A stretch of 33,882 nt of DNA, taken from NCBI GenBank assembly GCA_011052815.1, contig DRIG01000043.1, forward strand, positions 1 through 33,882. Reading direction: 5' to 3'. Numbering within the stretch: position 1 is the stretch's first letter; the number at the start of each line of letters is the position of its first letter. The notes below the pieces were generated by a model. It ran no database searches. It had not been told where the DNA came from and was given only the letters and a program-made list of their open reading frames with translations. The translations under genes were made by a program, and so were the position numbers. Of the stretch, positions 8,569 to 25,807 are shown piece after piece. The stretch comes from a candidate division WOR-3 bacterium. Lineage in GTDB: Bacteria > Hydrothermota > Tepidihabitantia > SM23-42.

Positions 8569-8596
8569 TTGACAAGAAAGGGCTTTTGAATATAAT
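8569..8596 (+). promoter_or_regulatory. Promoter of the DUF2723 operon
   Basis: TTGACA (8569-8574), 16-base spacer, TATAAT (8591-8596). Transcription should start near 8603, right at the AGGAGGT ribosome site (8604-8610), so the leader is only about 10 bases before the ATG at 8614. Confidence 0.88.
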
Positions 8597-8613
8597 AGAG
8601 TGCAGGAGGTTTT

Positions 8614-11331
8614 ATGGACTATAGAAAATTAGAGAAGATACTATTTTATATTTTGTTGTTCATCGTGGCGGCGGTTTATCTTTATACGGTTGCTCCCACC
8701 CTTTCTTTCTGGGACTGCGGTGAGTTCATTTCATCGGCTTATACCCTGGCAATCCCCCATCCACCGGGAACGCCCTTTTACATCCTTTTGGGAAGGGTCT
8801 GGCTTATGATTTTCGGGTTGATTTCAGCCGTAATGCCGATTTCAAAAGAGGTCGCCTGGCATATGAACCTTCTCGGGTTGAGCTTCTCGATCATCACCGT
8901 CGGCCTTTTATACAGATTGATTCTGAAATTATTCAGAATGTTCAGGACAAAGAGCAGTGAGTTGAAACTAATTCTTATCAGTTTTGGAACCTGTTTATCA
9001 ATTGCTTTCTTTTATACTTACTGGCAGAATGCAATCGAAACAGAGGTCTATGCGGCTTCGACCTTCATCTTTGTATTGATCACTTATCTGACATTACTAT
9101 GGTATGAAAGCGTTAAAGAAGGAACTCCCAAAAACAGATATATTCTCTTTTCCTGCTATCTTATCTTTCTTTCCACAGGAATTCATCTTATTCCGTTTTT
9201 GATTTTTATTCCTTTTTATATCTTCATTCTGATTGTCGAACGGACATATATCAAAGATATATTATTCTTGTTATTCGGAATTTTTCAACTCTTCTTTTTC
9301 AGCCTTTTGTTCCTCCTGCCCGGACCATATCAATTCCCCGCCGTCGTGGTCCTCGTTTTGATTCTGTTGGCTGGAATAATTCTTCCCCTGAATAATCCCC
9401 GTAAATACCACAACTGGTCGTTTTTCTGGGTGGGTATCTTTCTCGTCATCGCCGGCGTGTCGAGCGAGCTCTATCTGCCGCTGCGTTCAGCCCGATTGGT
9501 TGAGTTGTATAAAGATCCGAAAACCGAGGAGAGGTATCTCGCCGGTGAGAACATCGCGCCGCGCATAAATGAATGTGACCCCGGTGCAGACTTCAAGGCT
9601 TTTAACAGGGTTCTGCACCGTGAACAGTACGGTCCGCCCCGGTTGATTCCGAGACAGACCCAGGAGGCGACGGGTTTCAATCTCATTACCGGTTATTATC
9701 ATCAGTTCGCTCTTTTTGTCAGATACCTGTCATGGCAACCCATGCCCGAAAGTATAAACAGGATTTTCCGCGGAGTGGTGCTTGCTTTCTTTTATCTCTT
9801 CGGTTTGTGGGGATTTGTAGAGTTATATAAACGGGATAGAAAACTCTTTCTCTTTATGATGATGATTATGTTTATGCTGTCCTTTGCAATGGTCGGATAC
9901 CTGAATTTGAAGTTTTCGCCGAGCGACAGTAATCCCGTTCACCAGCCGAGAGAGGTGCGTGAGCGTGATTATTTCTTCCATACCAGTCATACCTACTTCG
10001 GCATTTTGATCGGTTTAGGCTTTTTCGGTGCAACTGAATTTATGCGGCGTGAATTGAAGAAGAAGAAGTTTGTCGAGCTGAGCTGTCTGAGCGGTTTTCT
10101 CGTCTTTTCCGTTATACCGTTCTTTTCCAACATCAGCAAAAACAACCGCTACGGCAATTTCATTCCGAAGGATTACGCCTATAACATGCTCATTTCCTGT
10201 GCTAAGGATGCAATCCTCTTTACCAACGGTGATAATGATACCTTTCCGCTCTGGTTCGCCCAGGAGGTGCTGGGTATACGAAGGGACGTAATCGTCGCCA
10301 ACCTTTCACTTATCAATACGAACTGGTACATAAAACAGTTGAAATACTGGGGTGCGCCGATTACTTTCAGTGAGTATATTATCGACCGTCTTGAGCCGTT
10401 TATGACGAGGGATCGGCGTATCTTCTATGTAAAGGATATTATGATTCGACACATCATTGCGGCGAACGCGGGAGTAAAACTAAAGAATGAAGATTATACT
10501 ACAACCCAGCAGGATTTTGCGAGCCGTTATTTAAAAGGATATTCAGGAAAGAGGCCGATCTACTTTGCTTCGACTGTCTCCCGGGAGAACTACGAGGGAT
10601 TTATTCCTTATTTAAGGCTTGAAGGGCTGGTCTATCGGGTGGTCGGTGACAGTTCCGTGATTCGAATCGGCAGCGGTAATCAGACTGCAGAGTTCAGTGA
10701 TATTGATATTGCAAAGACCGAGACCCTTTTTTACAAAACATATCGCTACACCGGAGTTTTTGAACCGGTGAAGTATGAACTGCTCTCGAAGATATTGGTT
10801 GATTTTGAAAAGAGAAAACAAGAAGGTGAGTTCTATGACTTTTCTCTTCCCAAGGATGAGAATATCCACAGGCTTTACAGTAATTATGCGGCAGGGTTGC
10901 ATACACTGGGTATCGTGCTTCAGGAGCGCGGTGATATTCAGGGAACACTCAGGGCGTGGCGCTTCGCTCGATTATTTGATGCGGGTCAGGCCCGTTTCTT
11001 TGATTATAATTTGGCTTTACTCTTTGCCCAGCTCGGCATGGAGGATAGTGCAGAACAGTATTTTTCCAAAATCAAAGCAAAGGACCCGGGGACACTTATG
11101 CGGATCGGCTCAATCTACCGGGCGATGGGGAAGTATGACAAGGCGATTGAATATTTCCAGCGCGCCATCACCCTCAATCCCCGGATTCCTGAAGCGTATT
11201 TCGGACTCTATACCCTGTATTTGGAGAATAAGGACAGTACGGCGGCGATTGGTGTCTTGAATGACTGGCTTAAGATAAATCCCCGTGATACGAGTGCAAT
11301 TAATATGTTAAAAGAACTGACAGGAAAATGA
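8614..11331 (+). CDS. DUF2723 / TMEM260-type membrane glycosyltransferase with TPR tail
   Basis: 905 residues. The N-terminus has the DUF2723 signature (TVAPTLSFWDCGEFISSAYT, then IPHPPGTPFY), followed by about ten membrane helices to roughly residue 490, a GT-C architecture. Conserved family motifs REVRERDYFF (near 446) and NGDNDTFPLW (538-547) are present. Residues about 785-900 form TPRs (YRAMGKYDKAIEYFQRAITLNP). The eukaryotic homologue TMEM260 is a protein O-mannosyltransferase; bacterial members are widespread in Bacteroidota and largely uncharacterised. A role in glycosylating secreted or surface proteins is inferred. The stop overlaps the next gene's ATG (ATGA). Confidence 0.9.
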   Translation: MDYRKLEKILFYILLFIVAAVYLYTVAPTLSFWDCGEFISSAYTLAIPHPPGTPFYILLGRVWLMIFGLISAVMPISKEVAWHMNLLGLSFSIITVGLLYRLILKLFRMFRTKSSELKLILISFGTCLSIAFFYTYWQNAIETEVYAASTFIFVLITYLTLLWYESVKEGTPKNRYILFSCYLIFLSTGIHLIPFLIFIPFYIFILIVERTYIKDILFLLFGIFQLFFFSLLFLLPGPYQFPAVVVLVLILLAGIILPLNNPRKYHNWSFFWVGIFLVIAGVSSELYLPLRSARLVELYKDPKTEERYLAGENIAPRINECDPGADFKAFNRVLHREQYGPPRLIPRQTQEATGFNLITGYYHQFALFVRYLSWQPMPESINRIFRGVVLAFFYLFGLWGFVELYKRDRKLFLFMMMIMFMLSFAMVGYLNLKFSPSDSNPVHQPREVRERDYFFHTSHTYFGILIGLGFFGATEFMRRELKKKKFVELSCLSGFLVFSVIPFFSNISKNNRYGNFIPKDYAYNMLISCAKDAILFTNGDNDTFPLWFAQEVLGIRRDVIVANLSLINTNWYIKQLKYWGAPITFSEYIIDRLEPFMTRDRRIFYVKDIMIRHIIAANAGVKLKNEDYTTTQQDFASRYLKGYSGKRPIYFASTVSRENYEGFIPYLRLEGLVYRVVGDSSVIRIGSGNQTAEFSDIDIAKTETLFYKTYRYTGVFEPVKYELLSKILVDFEKRKQEGEFYDFSLPKDENIHRLYSNYAAGLHTLGIVLQERGDIQGTLRAWRFARLFDAGQARFFDYNLALLFAQLGMEDSAEQYFSKIKAKDPGTLMRIGSIYRAMGKYDKAIEYFQRAITLNPRIPEAYFGLYTLYLENKDSTAAIGVLNDWLKINPRDTSAINMLKELTGK

Positions 11332-21370: not shown

Positions 21371-22449
21371 TTTTCACCTCCGAGTATTGCCTCAACTTTT
21401 TCAAGAACTTCAGGGGGTGTCGGTACTCCTCCTCCTGGACGGCCATGGAAAGAAATCTTTGAGCGGCATTCTGTGGCAAGTTTGACGTCGTCGATCATCT
21501 GACCGCAGTTCATCTCGACTACTAGAAAATGTTCGACCTTTTTTGAAAGATCCGCCAGTACATCCGCAGGAAAGGGCCACAGGGTTATCGGTCTCAGAAG
21601 TCCTACTTTGTATCCTTTGCTCCGCGCCATCTTGATCACCGCGCTGCAGACCCGGGCACACGTTCCATAGGCGACGATGACGATATCCGCGTCATCACAC
21701 TCCAACGCATCAAAGCGCTGTTCTTTCTTTTTTATCTCTTCATACTTTTTGGTGCGTTGGTGATTCAGGGCTTCGAGTTTGCCGGGTCGTAAATCATAAG
21801 AGCGGACAACCCTTCTTTCTCTTCCTTTACATCCTGACAGCGCCCATTCCGGTTCAGGAAGACTCTCTGGATCAATCGGTTCATAACTGAATTCAACGGG
21901 TTCCATCATCTGTCCCAGAATTCCATCGGCGACGATAAGTGCCGGATTTCGATATTTCTCCGCCAGCTCAAAGGCGAGCCTGGGGAATTCAAACAGGTCT
22001 TGGGCTGAATAGGGCGCGAGGGTTATTGTAAAGTAATCACCATGACCGCCTCCCCGGGTCGCCTGATAATAGTCTGATTGGGCGGGAGCGATATTGCCGA
22101 GTCCCGGGCCGCCTCTGATGACGTTGACCACCAGAACCGGGAGGTCGGCGCCGGCGATATATGAGATGCCTTCCTGCATCAGGCTTATTCCCGGTGAAGA
22201 GGACGACGTCATCGCACGTTTTCCCGCGGCGGCGGCTCCGAAAAGCATATTGATTGCGGCTATCTCACTTTCTGTCTGGACAAAGACCCCACCTTCCTCA
22301 TTCATCCTGATCGACATAAATTCAGGAATTTCATTCTGGGGGGTGATGGGATAGCCGGCAAAGAAACGACAGCCTGCGTGGATAACTCCTTCCACCAAAG
22401 CATGATTTCCGTACATCAATTTTTTCTCTGCTTTATTCGCTTTATTCAT
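21367..22449 (-). CDS. 2-oxoacid:ferredoxin oxidoreductase alpha subunit (VorB-like)
   Basis: 360 residues. GNHALVEGVIHAGCRFFAGYPITPQNEIPE is the pyrimidine-binding start of the alpha subunit; TSSSSPGISLMQEGISYIAG, GPGLGNIAPAQSDYYQATRGGGHGDY and DGILGQMMEPVEF closely match the group usually annotated 3-methyl-2-oxobutanoate dehydrogenase VorB. The substrate may therefore be branched-chain 2-oxoacids, though 2-oxoglutarate is possible. AGGAGG sits seven bases before the ATG. Ten bases separate it from the ferredoxin subunit. Confidence 0.94.
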   Translation of the reverse strand: MNKANKAEKKLMYGNHALVEGVIHAGCRFFAGYPITPQNEIPEFMSIRMNEEGGVFVQTESEIAAINMLFGAAAAGKRAMTSSSSPGISLMQEGISYIAGADLPVLVVNVIRGGPGLGNIAPAQSDYYQATRGGGHGDYFTITLAPYSAQDLFEFPRLAFELAEKYRNPALIVADGILGQMMEPVEFSYEPIDPESLPEPEWALSGCKGRERRVVRSYDLRPGKLEALNHQRTKKYEEIKKKEQRFDALECDDADIVIVAYGTCARVCSAVIKMARSKGYKVGLLRPITLWPFPADVLADLSKKVEHFLVVEMNCGQMIDDVKLATECRSKISFHGRPGGGVPTPPEVLEKVEAILGGEK

Positions 22450-22460
22450 TTTTCGCCTCC

Positions 22461-22670
22461 TTATTTATAGACCTCAATCGCCGGTTCTGGACAGACCATA
22501 TAACAGTAACCGCATCCTTTGCACTTCGTCATATCAGTGATCGTCGCCGGATGATACCCATTCGAATTAATACGATCTGGAGAAAGGACGAGAATATCCA
22601 CCGGGCAGATATTATCGCAGCAGAGTCCGCATCCTTTACAAATTTCTTCCAAAATTCTGACTTCGGGCAT
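22461..22670 (-). CDS. 2-oxoacid:ferredoxin oxidoreductase delta (ferredoxin) subunit
   Basis: 69 residues from MPEVRILEE; AGGAGG five bases before this ATG decides it over an ATG at 22688. Two 4Fe-4S clusters are visible: CKGCGLCCDNICP (one extra residue before the last Cys) and CKGCGYCYMVCP. It passes electrons from the TPP site to free ferredoxin. First gene of the delta-alpha-beta-gamma operon. Confidence 0.95.
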   Translation of the reverse strand: MPEVRILEEICKGCGLCCDNICPVDILVLSPDRINSNGYHPATITDMTKCKGCGYCYMVCPEPAIEVYK

Positions 22671-22760
22671 CAATTCCTCCTTTCTCATACAAAAAATTTA
22701 ACAGATAAATTAGTAATTAATAATCAGAATCCAATAATTCAATCTCTGAACGCCCTTTCT

Positions 22761-22788
22761 ATTATATCCAATATAATAATAAAGTCAA
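22761..22788 (-). promoter_or_regulatory. Promoter of the oxidoreductase operon
   Basis: Minus strand: TTGACT (22788-22783), 16-base spacer, TATAAT (22766-22761). Transcription would begin near 22754, leaving a leader of about 84 bases before 22670. Its -35 box is 13 bases from that of the divergent promoter at 22802-22829. Confidence 0.85.
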
Positions 22789-22801
22789 GAAAAGGGGGGT
22801 A

Positions 22802-22829
22802 TTGACATCCGTGAAATTTAATTTATAAT
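22802..22829 (+). promoter_or_regulatory. Promoter giving a leaderless mRNA for the TPR/zinc-finger gene
   Basis: TTGACA (22802-22807), 16-base spacer, TATAAT (22824-22829). The expected start is at 22836-22838 and the ATG is at 22838-22840, so the transcript should have a leader of zero to two bases and no ribosome site. Confidence 0.85.
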
Positions 22830-22837
22830 GCTTGTAT

Positions 22838-24559
22838 ATGGCAATTTTTTTACTCTGTCTGATGTGCCAATTCAGCATTCAATATAAACAGTTCTTGAAC
22901 TCTCCGGAGAGCGAAGTCGTTTTCAAAGGGTTGACAAGGAAGGAATACAGGGTAGCGGACTTTGCCGACAACCCGGTGATATTGTGGTTTTGGCGCAGCA
23001 ATACGGGAAGTGCGGAAGCCGATTCATTTCTCAAGAAAATCCATTTGAGAAAGAATTTCCATCTTTCCGCGGTACTGCGGTGGGAAGCGAAAGAAGCCCA
23101 GACAGATGAAGAAAAGATGAACAAATTGAACCTCGCCGTTCACTTCGACTCCACGGCGATCGAGAATTTCTTCTCCATATTATCTCTGGCAATAAAGAAT
23201 CGTGATTTACAGCAAATCAAAAGCGCCTTCGCTCTTCCGATACTCACTGATTTCCGCAGTCAGTTGTTTTTAATAAGCAATATAATACTTATTTTAGCCG
23301 CCGCCGTCTTTATGTGCGGTGTCGTCTATGTTTTAATTAAAACGATTCATTATCTTCCGGCAGCGGCTCACCGTTTGGGTCCTGAAAAAGGCGGGCAGAT
23401 GCTCGACGTCGTAAAGACCATCGTCCTTTTGAGTCCCATCATAATCTTCCGTAATCTCTATCTGATTTTTATCTGTTATGCACTTCTTTTGATATTCATT
23501 ATGGACAGGCAGGAAAAGAACTGGTTACGGCTGAATCTCATCGTTTTAATCATTATGTTCGTCCTCTCGCTTCCCGTAAACAGCTTTATCTCATTCTTGA
23601 AAGAGCATAATTATAATTATCAGGTGTACGAGATGATCAACTACGACAATTCCCTTACCATTGAACCGAACGGTAAAAACAGAGAATTAATCGCCTACGG
23701 CCTTAAACAGCAGGGGAATCTTGAAAGGGCGCTTTCTCTTTATGAAGAACTTTATTACAGTGGCAACCGGAACCTCGCCGTAGTTAACAATCTGGCGAAT
23801 ATCTATTTTTTATATAATGAAGACGCCCGCGCCGAATCACTCTATAATTACGCAATCCTGTCAGGAAATAGAGGCGAGCCGTATTTTAATCTGGGACTTT
23901 TAAAATTGAAGAATATCGAGTATTCCGAATCCTCACGACTTATGGAAGAGGCGAGGAAGCGGAATTTTTCAAGCCTTCTTAAAGAGCCGGTCGACATTAA
24001 ACCGGGTAATACTGATTTTTACAAGATGGTCTTTTCCGAAAAGCTGAAATTCAACGGTCTCATCAAGTTTATCTACGTTGTCCCGCTGGTTATTATTTTG
24101 ATTCTTTCTTTCCTGCCGTTCAAATTCACACCACCGTTTTATTGCGCGACCTGTGGAAAACCTATATGCGGACGATGTCTCAAAGAGGTCGATGATGAAA
24201 TTCTCTGTGAATCTTGTTTTACAAAATTTAAGTCAGCAAAACGGGCAGAGACAGAGGAAGAACTGCGCCGGGCGGTGAGTAAGAGCAGAAGGCGGCTCAG
24301 GCGGTTTATCCTCTATGCCGTAAATCTTTTTATTCCCGGGGCGGGTCTTATATATATAAACAGACATCTCACCGGTTTTATAATCATGTTTTTCGTTATT
24401 CTCGGCTATGTCCCTCTGCTCTTTCCCAGGATATTCGTGAAACCCGCCGGTTGGATAGCGATTCCCTTCAGCCCGATCTTCATCCTTATCGCGATGATTC
24501 TTGCGTTATTTTCCTACATAATTTCGTTTTTGATAATAAAGGAGTGCGATGCCGATTGA
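22838..24559 (+). CDS. Polytopic membrane protein with TPRs and a B-box-like zinc finger
   Basis: 573 residues from ATG 22838. An in-frame TTG at 22832 would lie before the expected transcription start, so I reject it. A hydrophobic N-terminus (MAIFLLCLMCQF) and about 155 residues of possible thioredoxin-like sequence come first (NPVILWFWRSNTGSAEADSFL, without a CxxC pair). Helices follow at roughly 146-250, two or three TPRs near 265-385, another helix near 410-428, then a B-box-like zinc site: C436, C439, C444, C447, C457, C460. Four more helices close the protein. I do not recognise the family. The stop overlaps the DUF4388 gene by 11 bases, so the two probably act together. Confidence 0.82.
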   Translation: MAIFLLCLMCQFSIQYKQFLNSPESEVVFKGLTRKEYRVADFADNPVILWFWRSNTGSAEADSFLKKIHLRKNFHLSAVLRWEAKEAQTDEEKMNKLNLAVHFDSTAIENFFSILSLAIKNRDLQQIKSAFALPILTDFRSQLFLISNIILILAAAVFMCGVVYVLIKTIHYLPAAAHRLGPEKGGQMLDVVKTIVLLSPIIIFRNLYLIFICYALLLIFIMDRQEKNWLRLNLIVLIIMFVLSLPVNSFISFLKEHNYNYQVYEMINYDNSLTIEPNGKNRELIAYGLKQQGNLERALSLYEELYYSGNRNLAVVNNLANIYFLYNEDARAESLYNYAILSGNRGEPYFNLGLLKLKNIEYSESSRLMEEARKRNFSSLLKEPVDIKPGNTDFYKMVFSEKLKFNGLIKFIYVVPLVIILILSFLPFKFTPPFYCATCGKPICGRCLKEVDDEILCESCFTKFKSAKRAETEEELRRAVSKSRRRLRRFILYAVNLFIPGAGLIYINRHLTGFIIMFFVILGYVPLLFPRIFVKPAGWIAIPFSPIFILIAMILALFSYIISFLIIKECDAD

Positions 24560-25550
24560 GGGAGATTTAAAAAGCCTTAATCTTTCCAGTGTTCTTCAGT
24601 TGATATCCCAGGAACGTCTTACCGGCGTTCTGAAGATAAAGAGACGGAATGAAGTCGTTGATATCGGTTTTGCCGAGGGTCAGATAACCGGTGCATTCTA
24701 TGAACGGGGTGAGAAGGTTGAAAGATTGGAGGTGTATCTGGTCAGATCCGGCATGATCGGCAGAAACGTATATAAATTAGTGGAAGAGATCCATGAGGAG
24801 ACGAAACGGCCGATTATGAACATTATTCTGGAAGACAGATATCTGACTACGGAAGAGGTCGAAAGAATCATAAAGTTCAAGATACAGGAGGTTATTGACG
24901 AGTTGTTTCAGTGGGAGGAAGGGGCTTTTAAATTTGAAGAGGGTTCGATAATATATCCAAAAAGTTTGATAAAAATACGGTTGAACACAGAAGGATTGAT
25001 TTTAGAAGCCGCACGGCGGATGGATGAATGGCCCAGAATAAAAGAGGCGGTGCCTTCCGGAGATATCGTATATAAGAAGGTCGAGAGGCCTGAATTGAAA
25101 TTGACTCCCCAGGAAGATGAGGCACGGGTTCTTTCATTATTAAACGGCCACCGAAGTGTTGATGATTTGATTGAGATTTCAGGGCTTGGAAAATTTCATA
25201 CTTATTCCTGCCTTTATCGTCTTTTATCTACCGGCCAGATAGAGGTCGCCTATGCAAAGCCCACTGCCAAGAAGATAAGGCCCAAGAGAAAGAAGATTTC
25301 CCTCAAGTTTATCACGGTGCCGCTAACGGCCGTGTTCGCCCTGGCGGTGCTGCTGGTAGAGATATTGATCGGTAATTATCTCAGTAAGAACCATTTGATT
25401 ACTGTAAATATTTTCAACAAGGAGATGTATCAATCTGATTATAAAGATTATCAGGAGATTTTTTTCTTCAGGCACAACAGAAAACCTTCTGTTAAAGAAG
25501 TGAAACTTATTTTTGAAAGTGAAGCTCAGGGACCGGGAGAGGCGGATTGA
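24549..25550 (+). CDS. DUF4388 (PatA-N-like) protein with C-terminal membrane helix
   Basis: 333 residues. The N-terminus (MPIEGDLKSLNLSSVLQLIS, then RLTGVLKIKRRNEVVDIGFAEGQITGAFY) is a clear DUF4388 domain, found in gliding, chemotaxis-like and signalling proteins. Residues about 195-240 (LTPQEDEARVLSLLNGHRSVDDLIEISGL) form a winged-helix-like segment typical of this family. A basic stretch precedes one membrane helix near 252-275 and an about 55-residue tail. GGAG precedes the ATG. A role as a membrane-tethered regulator linked to the preceding TPR protein is inferred. Ends 38 bases from a convergent gene. Confidence 0.85.
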   Translation: MPIEGDLKSLNLSSVLQLISQERLTGVLKIKRRNEVVDIGFAEGQITGAFYERGEKVERLEVYLVRSGMIGRNVYKLVEEIHEETKRPIMNIILEDRYLTTEEVERIIKFKIQEVIDELFQWEEGAFKFEEGSIIYPKSLIKIRLNTEGLILEAARRMDEWPRIKEAVPSGDIVYKKVERPELKLTPQEDEARVLSLLNGHRSVDDLIEISGLGKFHTYSCLYRLLSTGQIEVAYAKPTAKKIRPKRKKISLKFITVPLTAVFALAVLLVEILIGNYLSKNHLITVNIFNKEMYQSDYKDYQEIFFFRHNRKPSVKEVKLIFESEAQGPGEAD

Positions 25551-25588: not shown

Positions 25589-25774
25589 TTAAAATGGTTT
25601 TTCTTTTATTTCAAAATTAAATTGAGTAAGGCTGTAAAGCTGCATAAGTTCTTCATATGAAAAGGTGGCGTTGCAGTTCGGACAGATATAAAACCCGTCT
25701 TCCGTGAGAATGAGATCAAAATATTTTGAGGTAAAAATACAAAAAGGGCAGAGTACTTTGTCGATTTTCGCCAT
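25589..25774 (-). CDS. Small zinc-ribbon protein
   Basis: 61 residues. CPFC (9-12) and CPNC (32-35), 19 residues apart, form a rubredoxin-like zinc knuckle pair; the rest is a short beta/alpha tail (YEELMQLYSLTQFNFEIKE). Function unknown; such proteins often assist transcription or metal handling. A full-consensus promoter ends five bases before the ATG, which argues strongly that this is a real gene with a leaderless mRNA. It follows the asparaginase gene by 35 bases. Confidence 0.8.
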   Translation of the reverse strand: MAKIDKVLCPFCIFTSKYFDLILTEDGFYICPNCNATFSYEELMQLYSLTQFNFEIKEKPF

Positions 25775-25779
25775 GGATA

Positions 25780-25807
25780 ATTATAACCAGGAATGGTTGA
25801 TTGTCAA
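25780..25807 (-). promoter_or_regulatory. Promoter giving a leaderless mRNA for the zinc-ribbon gene
   Basis: Minus strand: TTGACA (25807-25802), 16-base spacer, TATAAT (25785-25780), then only TATCC before ATG at 25774. The sixth base after the -10 box is the A of the ATG, the usual position of the transcription start. The -35 box is two bases beyond the asparaginase stop codon. Confidence 0.88.

Follow-up and report, generated by a model that had tools for sequence, protein, structure and literature searches.

A consensus promoter abutting the start codon suggests a conserved leaderless layout in one order of candidate division WOR-3

Leaderless genes are already known in bacteria. The survey of Zheng et al. 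(2011; PMC3160421) described TA-led genes, marked by a Pribnow-like box situated about 10 bp ahead of the start, in several phyla and in 207 of the 953 bacterial genomes covered, and argued that leaderless initiation is restricted to the gene that opens a transcript. The same report found that the turnover of initiation mode is proportional to the 16S distance in Actinobacteria and Streptococcaceae. Open reading frames adjacent to a −10 motif, which serves as the promoter for a leaderless mRNA, were described in Deinococcus-Thermus in a study that also includes a general bacterial scan (Zhong et al., 2025; PMC12340547). An extensive leaderless class with mapped starts is known in Mycobacterium tuberculosis (Cortes et al., 2013; PMC3898074), whereas the WOR-3 starts considered here are predicted. 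An AT-rich bias before starts is, by itself, not proof (Nakagawa, 2017). We found no report of a leaderless class in WOR-3 in the open-licence literature, and the instance described here appears to be new; WOR-3 genomes may, however, be covered by the domain-wide scan of Zhong et al. (2025). WOR-3 is absent from the groups that Zheng et al. (2011) name in their distribution and evolution sections.

The window analyzed here is a stretch of 33,882 nucleotides (contig DRIG01000043.1) from a candidate division WOR-3 genome of 2,385,744 bases (111 contigs, 97.55% complete). On its forward strand, an open frame at 22838–24559, stop codon included, encodes a 573-aa product, labeled a membrane protein, in which TPR-like helices are combined with a zinc-ribbon-like segment containing six cysteines (hereinafter, the TPR/zinc-ribbon gene). 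Upstream of its start codon ATG (22838–22840) are the −35 hexamer TTGACA (22802–22807), a 16-nt spacer (22808–22823), the −10 hexamer TATAAT (22824–22829), and the 8-nt discriminator GCTTGTAT (22830–22837), all on the forward strand. All 12 consensus positions of a sigma-70-type promoter (TTGACA and TATAAT 16–18 nt apart) are present, and the distance of 8 nt from the −10 box to the start is within the range of approximately 5–9 nt expected for TA-led genes. Again as expected for such genes, the TPR/zinc-ribbon gene is the first of its transcript, the upstream genes being on the opposite strand. No Shine-Dalgarno match of at least four bases was found ahead of ATG 22838. A preliminary description of this DNA had placed the end of the −10 box at 22829 and the ATG at 22838 with no ribosome site, and both the coordinates and the Shine-Dalgarno scan agree with it. 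A promoter scan of positions 22000–24500 with a threshold of nine out of 12 consensus positions revealed six promoter-like sites, the one upstream of the TPR/zinc-ribbon gene being the best. As shuffled sequence yields on average 4.9 sites at this threshold, the weak sites are noise, whereas the TPR/zinc-ribbon promoter is exact.

With a perfect sigma-70-type promoter abutting the ATG, the mRNA of the TPR/zinc-ribbon gene would, very probably, have its 5′ end at A22838 or some two bases earlier. The predicted transcription start (22836–22838) is derived from the promoter geometry: both A22836, following a 6-nt discriminator, and A22838, following an 8-nt one, are plausible, leaving a leader of two or zero nucleotides, respectively. 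The discriminator letters, when examined, gave no choice between the two. According to the preliminary description, the transcript “must” start no more than two bases away from the ATG; the geometry and the conserved short gap (see below) are in favor of this position, but the word “must” is too strong for an inferred start. A strict zero leader was not adopted here, given gaps of 8–10 nt; the 8 nt found in the window leave room for a leader of two nucleotides.

The TPR/zinc-ribbon protein was searched for in 41 genomes and matched in 26 of them, at 28 places. Two genomes of the family (G010 and G013) gave no match in this search. We analyzed 25 loci, including the one in the window, having excluded a distant match (L026) and two partial ones (L027 and L028). 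Three of the loci (L015, L019, and L023) lack upstream DNA, so that 22 loci are readable, i.e., the window gene and 21 relatives. Among the named records (19 loci of an alignment scan), the relatives come from candidate division WOR-3 or Candidatus Stahlbacteria and, in one case, from a record titled TA06.

All 22 readable orthologs start with ATG and have the −35 hexamer TTGACA. The −10 hexamer is TATAAT in 21 of them and TATACT in one, and the promoter score is, respectively, 12/12 (21 loci) and 11/12 (one locus); the spacer is 16 nt in 21 orthologs and 17 nt in one. The gap between the −10 box and the in-frame ATG is 5 nt in six orthologs, 6 nt in ten, 7 nt in one, 8 nt in one (the window gene), and 10 nt in four (L002–L004 and L025); that is, 5–8 nt in 18/22. 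A Shine-Dalgarno sequence of at least four bases before the ATG is absent from all 22. The proteins of the 21 relatives are 43–59% identical to that of the window, and the letters of the spacers and discriminators differ; hence the kept feature is the promoter together with its distance to the ATG. A leaderless mRNA, which the preliminary description had proposed for the window gene, predicts precisely this, i.e., that a short promoter–ATG distance is retained amid changing surroundings, and the prediction holds in 22/22 orthologs with gaps of 5–10 nt. Such conservation identifies the short-distance layout, at the sequence level, as inherited and maintained within one WOR-3 order, in two of its families. 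The distant match from family f3 (L026, 26% identity) lacks such a promoter, its best site scoring 8/12. Where the gap is 10 nt, as in four relatives, the transcript seems likelier to carry about 4 nt of leader than none, and hence “leaderless” should be read here as 0 to about 4 nt.

Four other explanations of the layout were considered. One is that a second promoter farther upstream supplies a normal leader, the abutting promoter being minor. There are weak promoter-like sites nearby, at about the chance rate; however, the longer leader would still have no ribosome site, given the lack of Shine-Dalgarno sequences in the 22 readable orthologs, the abutting promoter scores best within the 140–170 nt searched upstream of every one of them, and in the window the divergent ferredoxin oxidoreductase promoter sits just upstream. 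We consider this explanation very unlikely. The same low probability is given to a true start located downstream, e.g., at the in-frame ATG at codon 9, which would follow a short leader without a Shine-Dalgarno sequence. While residues 1–10 are poorly modeled (pLDDT below 50), the abutting ATG is present in 22/22 orthologs and the one at codon 9 in only 2/22, no further ATG occurs in codons 2–20 of 19/22, the hydrophobic start is common to the relatives, and all 14 aligned sequences have F12.

Translation from the in-frame TTG at 22832–22834, within the discriminator, has still less to recommend it. It yields the longest open frame, but the codon lies 2 nt past the −10 box, where transcription would not usually have begun yet. 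In-frame TTG or GTG codons in the gap are confined to the window gene (1/22), the 21 relatives having none. The preliminary description had rejected this TTG as the start, and we concur, regarding its use as extremely improbable. Finally, the chance occurrence of TATAAT near an ATG in an AT-rich genome may be dismissed: although 37 genomic matches at a control distance (see below) demonstrate that single matches are no proof, the same layout in 22/22 readable orthologs at 43–59% protein identity refutes coincidence for this gene.

The leaderless reading of the TPR/zinc-ribbon gene thus being preferred, the neighboring genes of the window provide both parallels and contrasts. The ferredoxin oxidoreductase genes are transcribed divergently, from a reverse-strand promoter TTGACT-16-TATAAT (22761–22788) whose −10 box is 90 nt before the ATG at 22670; this ATG is preceded by AAGGAGG, and the leader is therefore normal. 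Another leadered contrast, on the forward strand at 8569–8613, consists of TTGACA-16-TATAAT followed by 17 nt with AGGAGGT and the ATG at 8614. Downstream of the TPR/zinc-ribbon gene and overlapping it by 11 nt is the second gene, at 24549–25550 of the forward strand, whose product is a DUF4388 protein (E-value 5.7e-28) and which is presumably on the same transcript. On the reverse strand, convergently to the TPR/zinc-ribbon gene, lies a second predicted leaderless gene (25589–25774), encoding a 61-aa zinc-ribbon protein that scores 22.2 bits with A2L_zn_ribbon, just under the cut-off of 22.9. Its promoter TTGACA-16-TATAAT (25780–25807, reverse strand) ends 5 nt before the ATG at 25774, and the same layout is seen in 17 relatives' loci, i.e., opposite the TPR gene in 18/25 loci including that of the window. 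The gap is 5 nt, with one locus having 4 nt, and one of the genes starts with GTG. These genes were searched for by motif and several loci are incomplete, so the remaining 7/25 say little.

The product of the TPR/zinc-ribbon gene is only loosely characterized by similarity. The TPR_19 score of 18.4 bits is below the Pfam gathering cut-off of 25, a search of NCBIfam with the protein produced no family match, and the “membrane” label rests on hydrophobic stretches judged by eye. Cysteines C436, C439, C444, C447, C457, and C460 are invariant in the 14 aligned sequences. The structure model is mostly helical (mean pLDDT 85.9), and a Foldseek search with it returned TPR-like partial matches only, with query TM-scores of 0.16–0.19 among the 50 matches listed and no function indicated. 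A membrane-anchored scaffold working with the DUF4388 partner would be a guess.

The preliminary description had also proposed counting promoters that abut start codons across the genome. Exact promoters with spacers of 15–18 nt have 243 matches in the 2.39 Mb genome, compared to three for a reversed control pattern. An ATG is found 4–10 nt after an exact promoter in 99 cases, and at a control distance of 20–26 nt in 37 cases; the count thus reveals a genome-wide class. About a third of the genomic matches could accordingly be coincidental, although the control distance probably overstates chance, as it also holds real leadered genes. A control with the reversed pattern (0 vs. 105 matches) was rejected as a measure of enrichment, since reversal of the pattern destroys the promoter and thereby overstates the effect; the distance control was used instead. 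Across the order, the 27 genomes searched contain 2219 near matches vs. 998 control ones, the near count being higher in 27/27. For other families, near and control counts were summed for 67 of 147 genomes. Four genomes of family f25 (G086–G089) have the reverse bias, with 23 near matches (4–10 nt) vs. 49 control ones (20–26 nt), and hence the leaderless class is not phylum-wide.

The size of the class was estimated in a sample of 400,000 bases in 20 stretches of the same genome outside the window (L078–L097), where a simple greedy rule called 335 frames of at least 100 aa. Exact TATAAT boxes before an ATG peak near gene starts, with six, six, four, and two cases at gaps of 5, 6, 7, and 8 nt, respectively, compared to zero, two, one, and zero inside genes; the looser box TAnnnT has no clear peak near the gene starts of this sample. 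Promoters with all 12 consensus positions are too few in the sample (7/151 operon-first genes vs. 0–5 at control distances; 10/335 genes vs. 0–6), and the class was therefore estimated from those with at least 10/12. At this threshold, 28/151 operon-first genes are leaderless-like vs. 7–16 at six control distances, and 36/335 of all sampled genes vs. 8–20. Relative to the mean of the controls, this amounts to a rough surplus of about 17 among the operon-first genes and about 22 among all 335 genes, whereas in Deinococcus-Thermus about 30% of ORFs are of this type (Zhong et al., 2025). A Shine-Dalgarno sequence of at least five bases precedes some candidate start in 153/335 sampled genes. As these sequence counts show, predicted leaderless initiation, of which the TPR/zinc-ribbon gene is one case, is a minority mode genome-wide, beside a larger Shine-Dalgarno class.

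The spacer length of exact TTGACA/TATAAT promoters is itself nearly uniform. With spacers of 14–19 nt allowed, there are 43 such promoters in 400 kb of the genome, 39 of them with 16 nt and two with 17 nt. In 200 kb of E. coli K-12, taken as a yardstick, no exact promoter with a 14–19-nt spacer was found.

Five further genes were followed across relatives, their identities being assigned with Pfam and NCBIfam. Ribosomal protein L13 (rplM), PdxJ, SelA, and RnfB were picked from the exact-promoter matches in the window's genome (30 loci), and PolA from a list of its 11/12 promoters; as the leaderless families were chosen for exact or near-exact promoters and for recognizability, their high conservation cannot be taken as an unbiased measure. 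The leaderless layout of L13 is present in 24/24 readable loci of the order, with a gap of 8 nt in 20 of them and 7 nt in four genomes of family f2; outside the order, three out of the four class-level relatives seen are not leaderless. L102 and L121 are not readable in this count, though the sequence of L102 shows the layout, and L117 uses an ATG that precedes the aligned start by 9 nt. For PdxJ, the layout is observed in 25/25 readable loci of the order (L138 left out), with a gap of 5 nt in 24 and 6 nt in one. RnfB has it in 16/16 readable loci of family f1 at gaps of 8–9 nt, and in 0/12 class-level relatives outside the order; L213 and L217 were left out, and no member of family f2 is readable. 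In PolA (L278–L299), it is seen in 20/20 readable loci of the order, with gaps of 5–7 nt and a start codon ATG or GTG. L289 and L298 were left out, while L285 (TATAAT-TTATT-GTG), for which the script chose a distant box, was counted by eye as having a gap of 5 nt. Unlike those of the other leaderless genes followed, the PolA promoters have a weak −35 region, with scores of 8–11 in the 19 that were scored.

Of the six families followed across relatives with protein searches, SelA is the only one with partial retention, the layout being kept in only 16/23 loci of the order; two loci with 41% identity (L186 and L187) were excluded from the 23. In four SelA loci (L169, L170, L171, and L175), an exact promoter is retained, yet the closest start that could be used lies at 16–17 nt instead of 5–6 nt, with AAGGA ahead of it in two cases. 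Judging by sequence, these loci apparently switched the start mode on an unchanged exact promoter. Two RplM, one PdxJ, and one SelA relatives with a five-base Shine-Dalgarno piece before another in-frame codon were counted as leaderless.

Two genes that have an exact promoter and a leader in the window's genome served as controls, both imperfect. The ExbB/TolQ-like gene has a Shine-Dalgarno sequence of at least seven bases in 25/25 loci and a best promoter of 11–12 in 22/25; the promoter–ATG distance varies from 18 to 88 nt, with 12/25 loci clustering at 22–28 nt. The cyclase/ATPase gene has promoters scoring 11–12 in 19/19 loci, at a distance of 31–105 nt in 16 and of 8 nt in three genomes of family f2 (L260–L262), which apparently represents another switch of the predicted start mode. 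A Shine-Dalgarno sequence of at least five bases was found in only 6/19 cyclase/ATPase loci, and hence some of these starts may be misplaced. Strong promoters are thus widespread in this lineage. As the leadered controls mostly have near-consensus promoters at varying distances, it is the near-fixed short distance that marks leaderless genes.

Thus, the WOR-3 genes resemble TA-led ones (Zheng et al., 2011) in that the box is close to the start and they form a minority beside genes led by Shine-Dalgarno sequences. Two features differ from the TA-led genes as described in that report. Firstly, several of the chosen WOR-3 genes keep not only the mode but also an almost constant gap, be it throughout a family or throughout the order. 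Secondly, a −35 box is present too, separated by a 16-nt spacer, although it is weak in PolA. The leaderless layout looks like a stable habit of this WOR-3 group, kept by several core genes.

The proposed course of expression is as follows. The housekeeping (sigma-70-type) promoter would drive the TPR/zinc-ribbon gene, the transcript being predicted to start at A22838 or about two bases earlier. Because a Shine-Dalgarno site would not fit into so short a leader, the 5′-terminal AUG itself would have to be recognized by the ribosome, by analogy with known leaderless mRNAs for which 70S initiation is established. The overlapping DUF4388 gene may then be read via translational coupling or from a site of its own.

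These observations extend the list of phyla with a leaderless class by one that has hardly any cultured representatives. They also affect start-codon calling, as a longest-frame rule would choose TTG 22832 in the TPR/zinc-ribbon gene. Orthologs with fixed or seemingly switched start modes on similar near-consensus promoters, such as those of SelA and the cyclase gene, offer a clean comparative test. The wider phylum has a pure culture, strain sy37 (PMC12285271), assigned to the class Hydrothermia (PMC12542636), and hence 5′ ends can be mapped. The promoter–ATG distance is near-locked at 8 or 7 nt in L13 and at 5 nt in PdxJ, whereas the leadered controls mostly have strong promoters at varying distances. 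We tentatively suggest, as a possibility that we ourselves hold somewhat doubtful, that the leaderless status is selected and gene-specific, being fixed in L13, PdxJ, RnfB, PolA, the TPR/zinc-ribbon gene, and its 61-aa neighbor, and that it is used for co-regulating a core set. If so, the leaderless mode would co-regulate core genes of these bacteria, e.g., via the state of the 70S pool.
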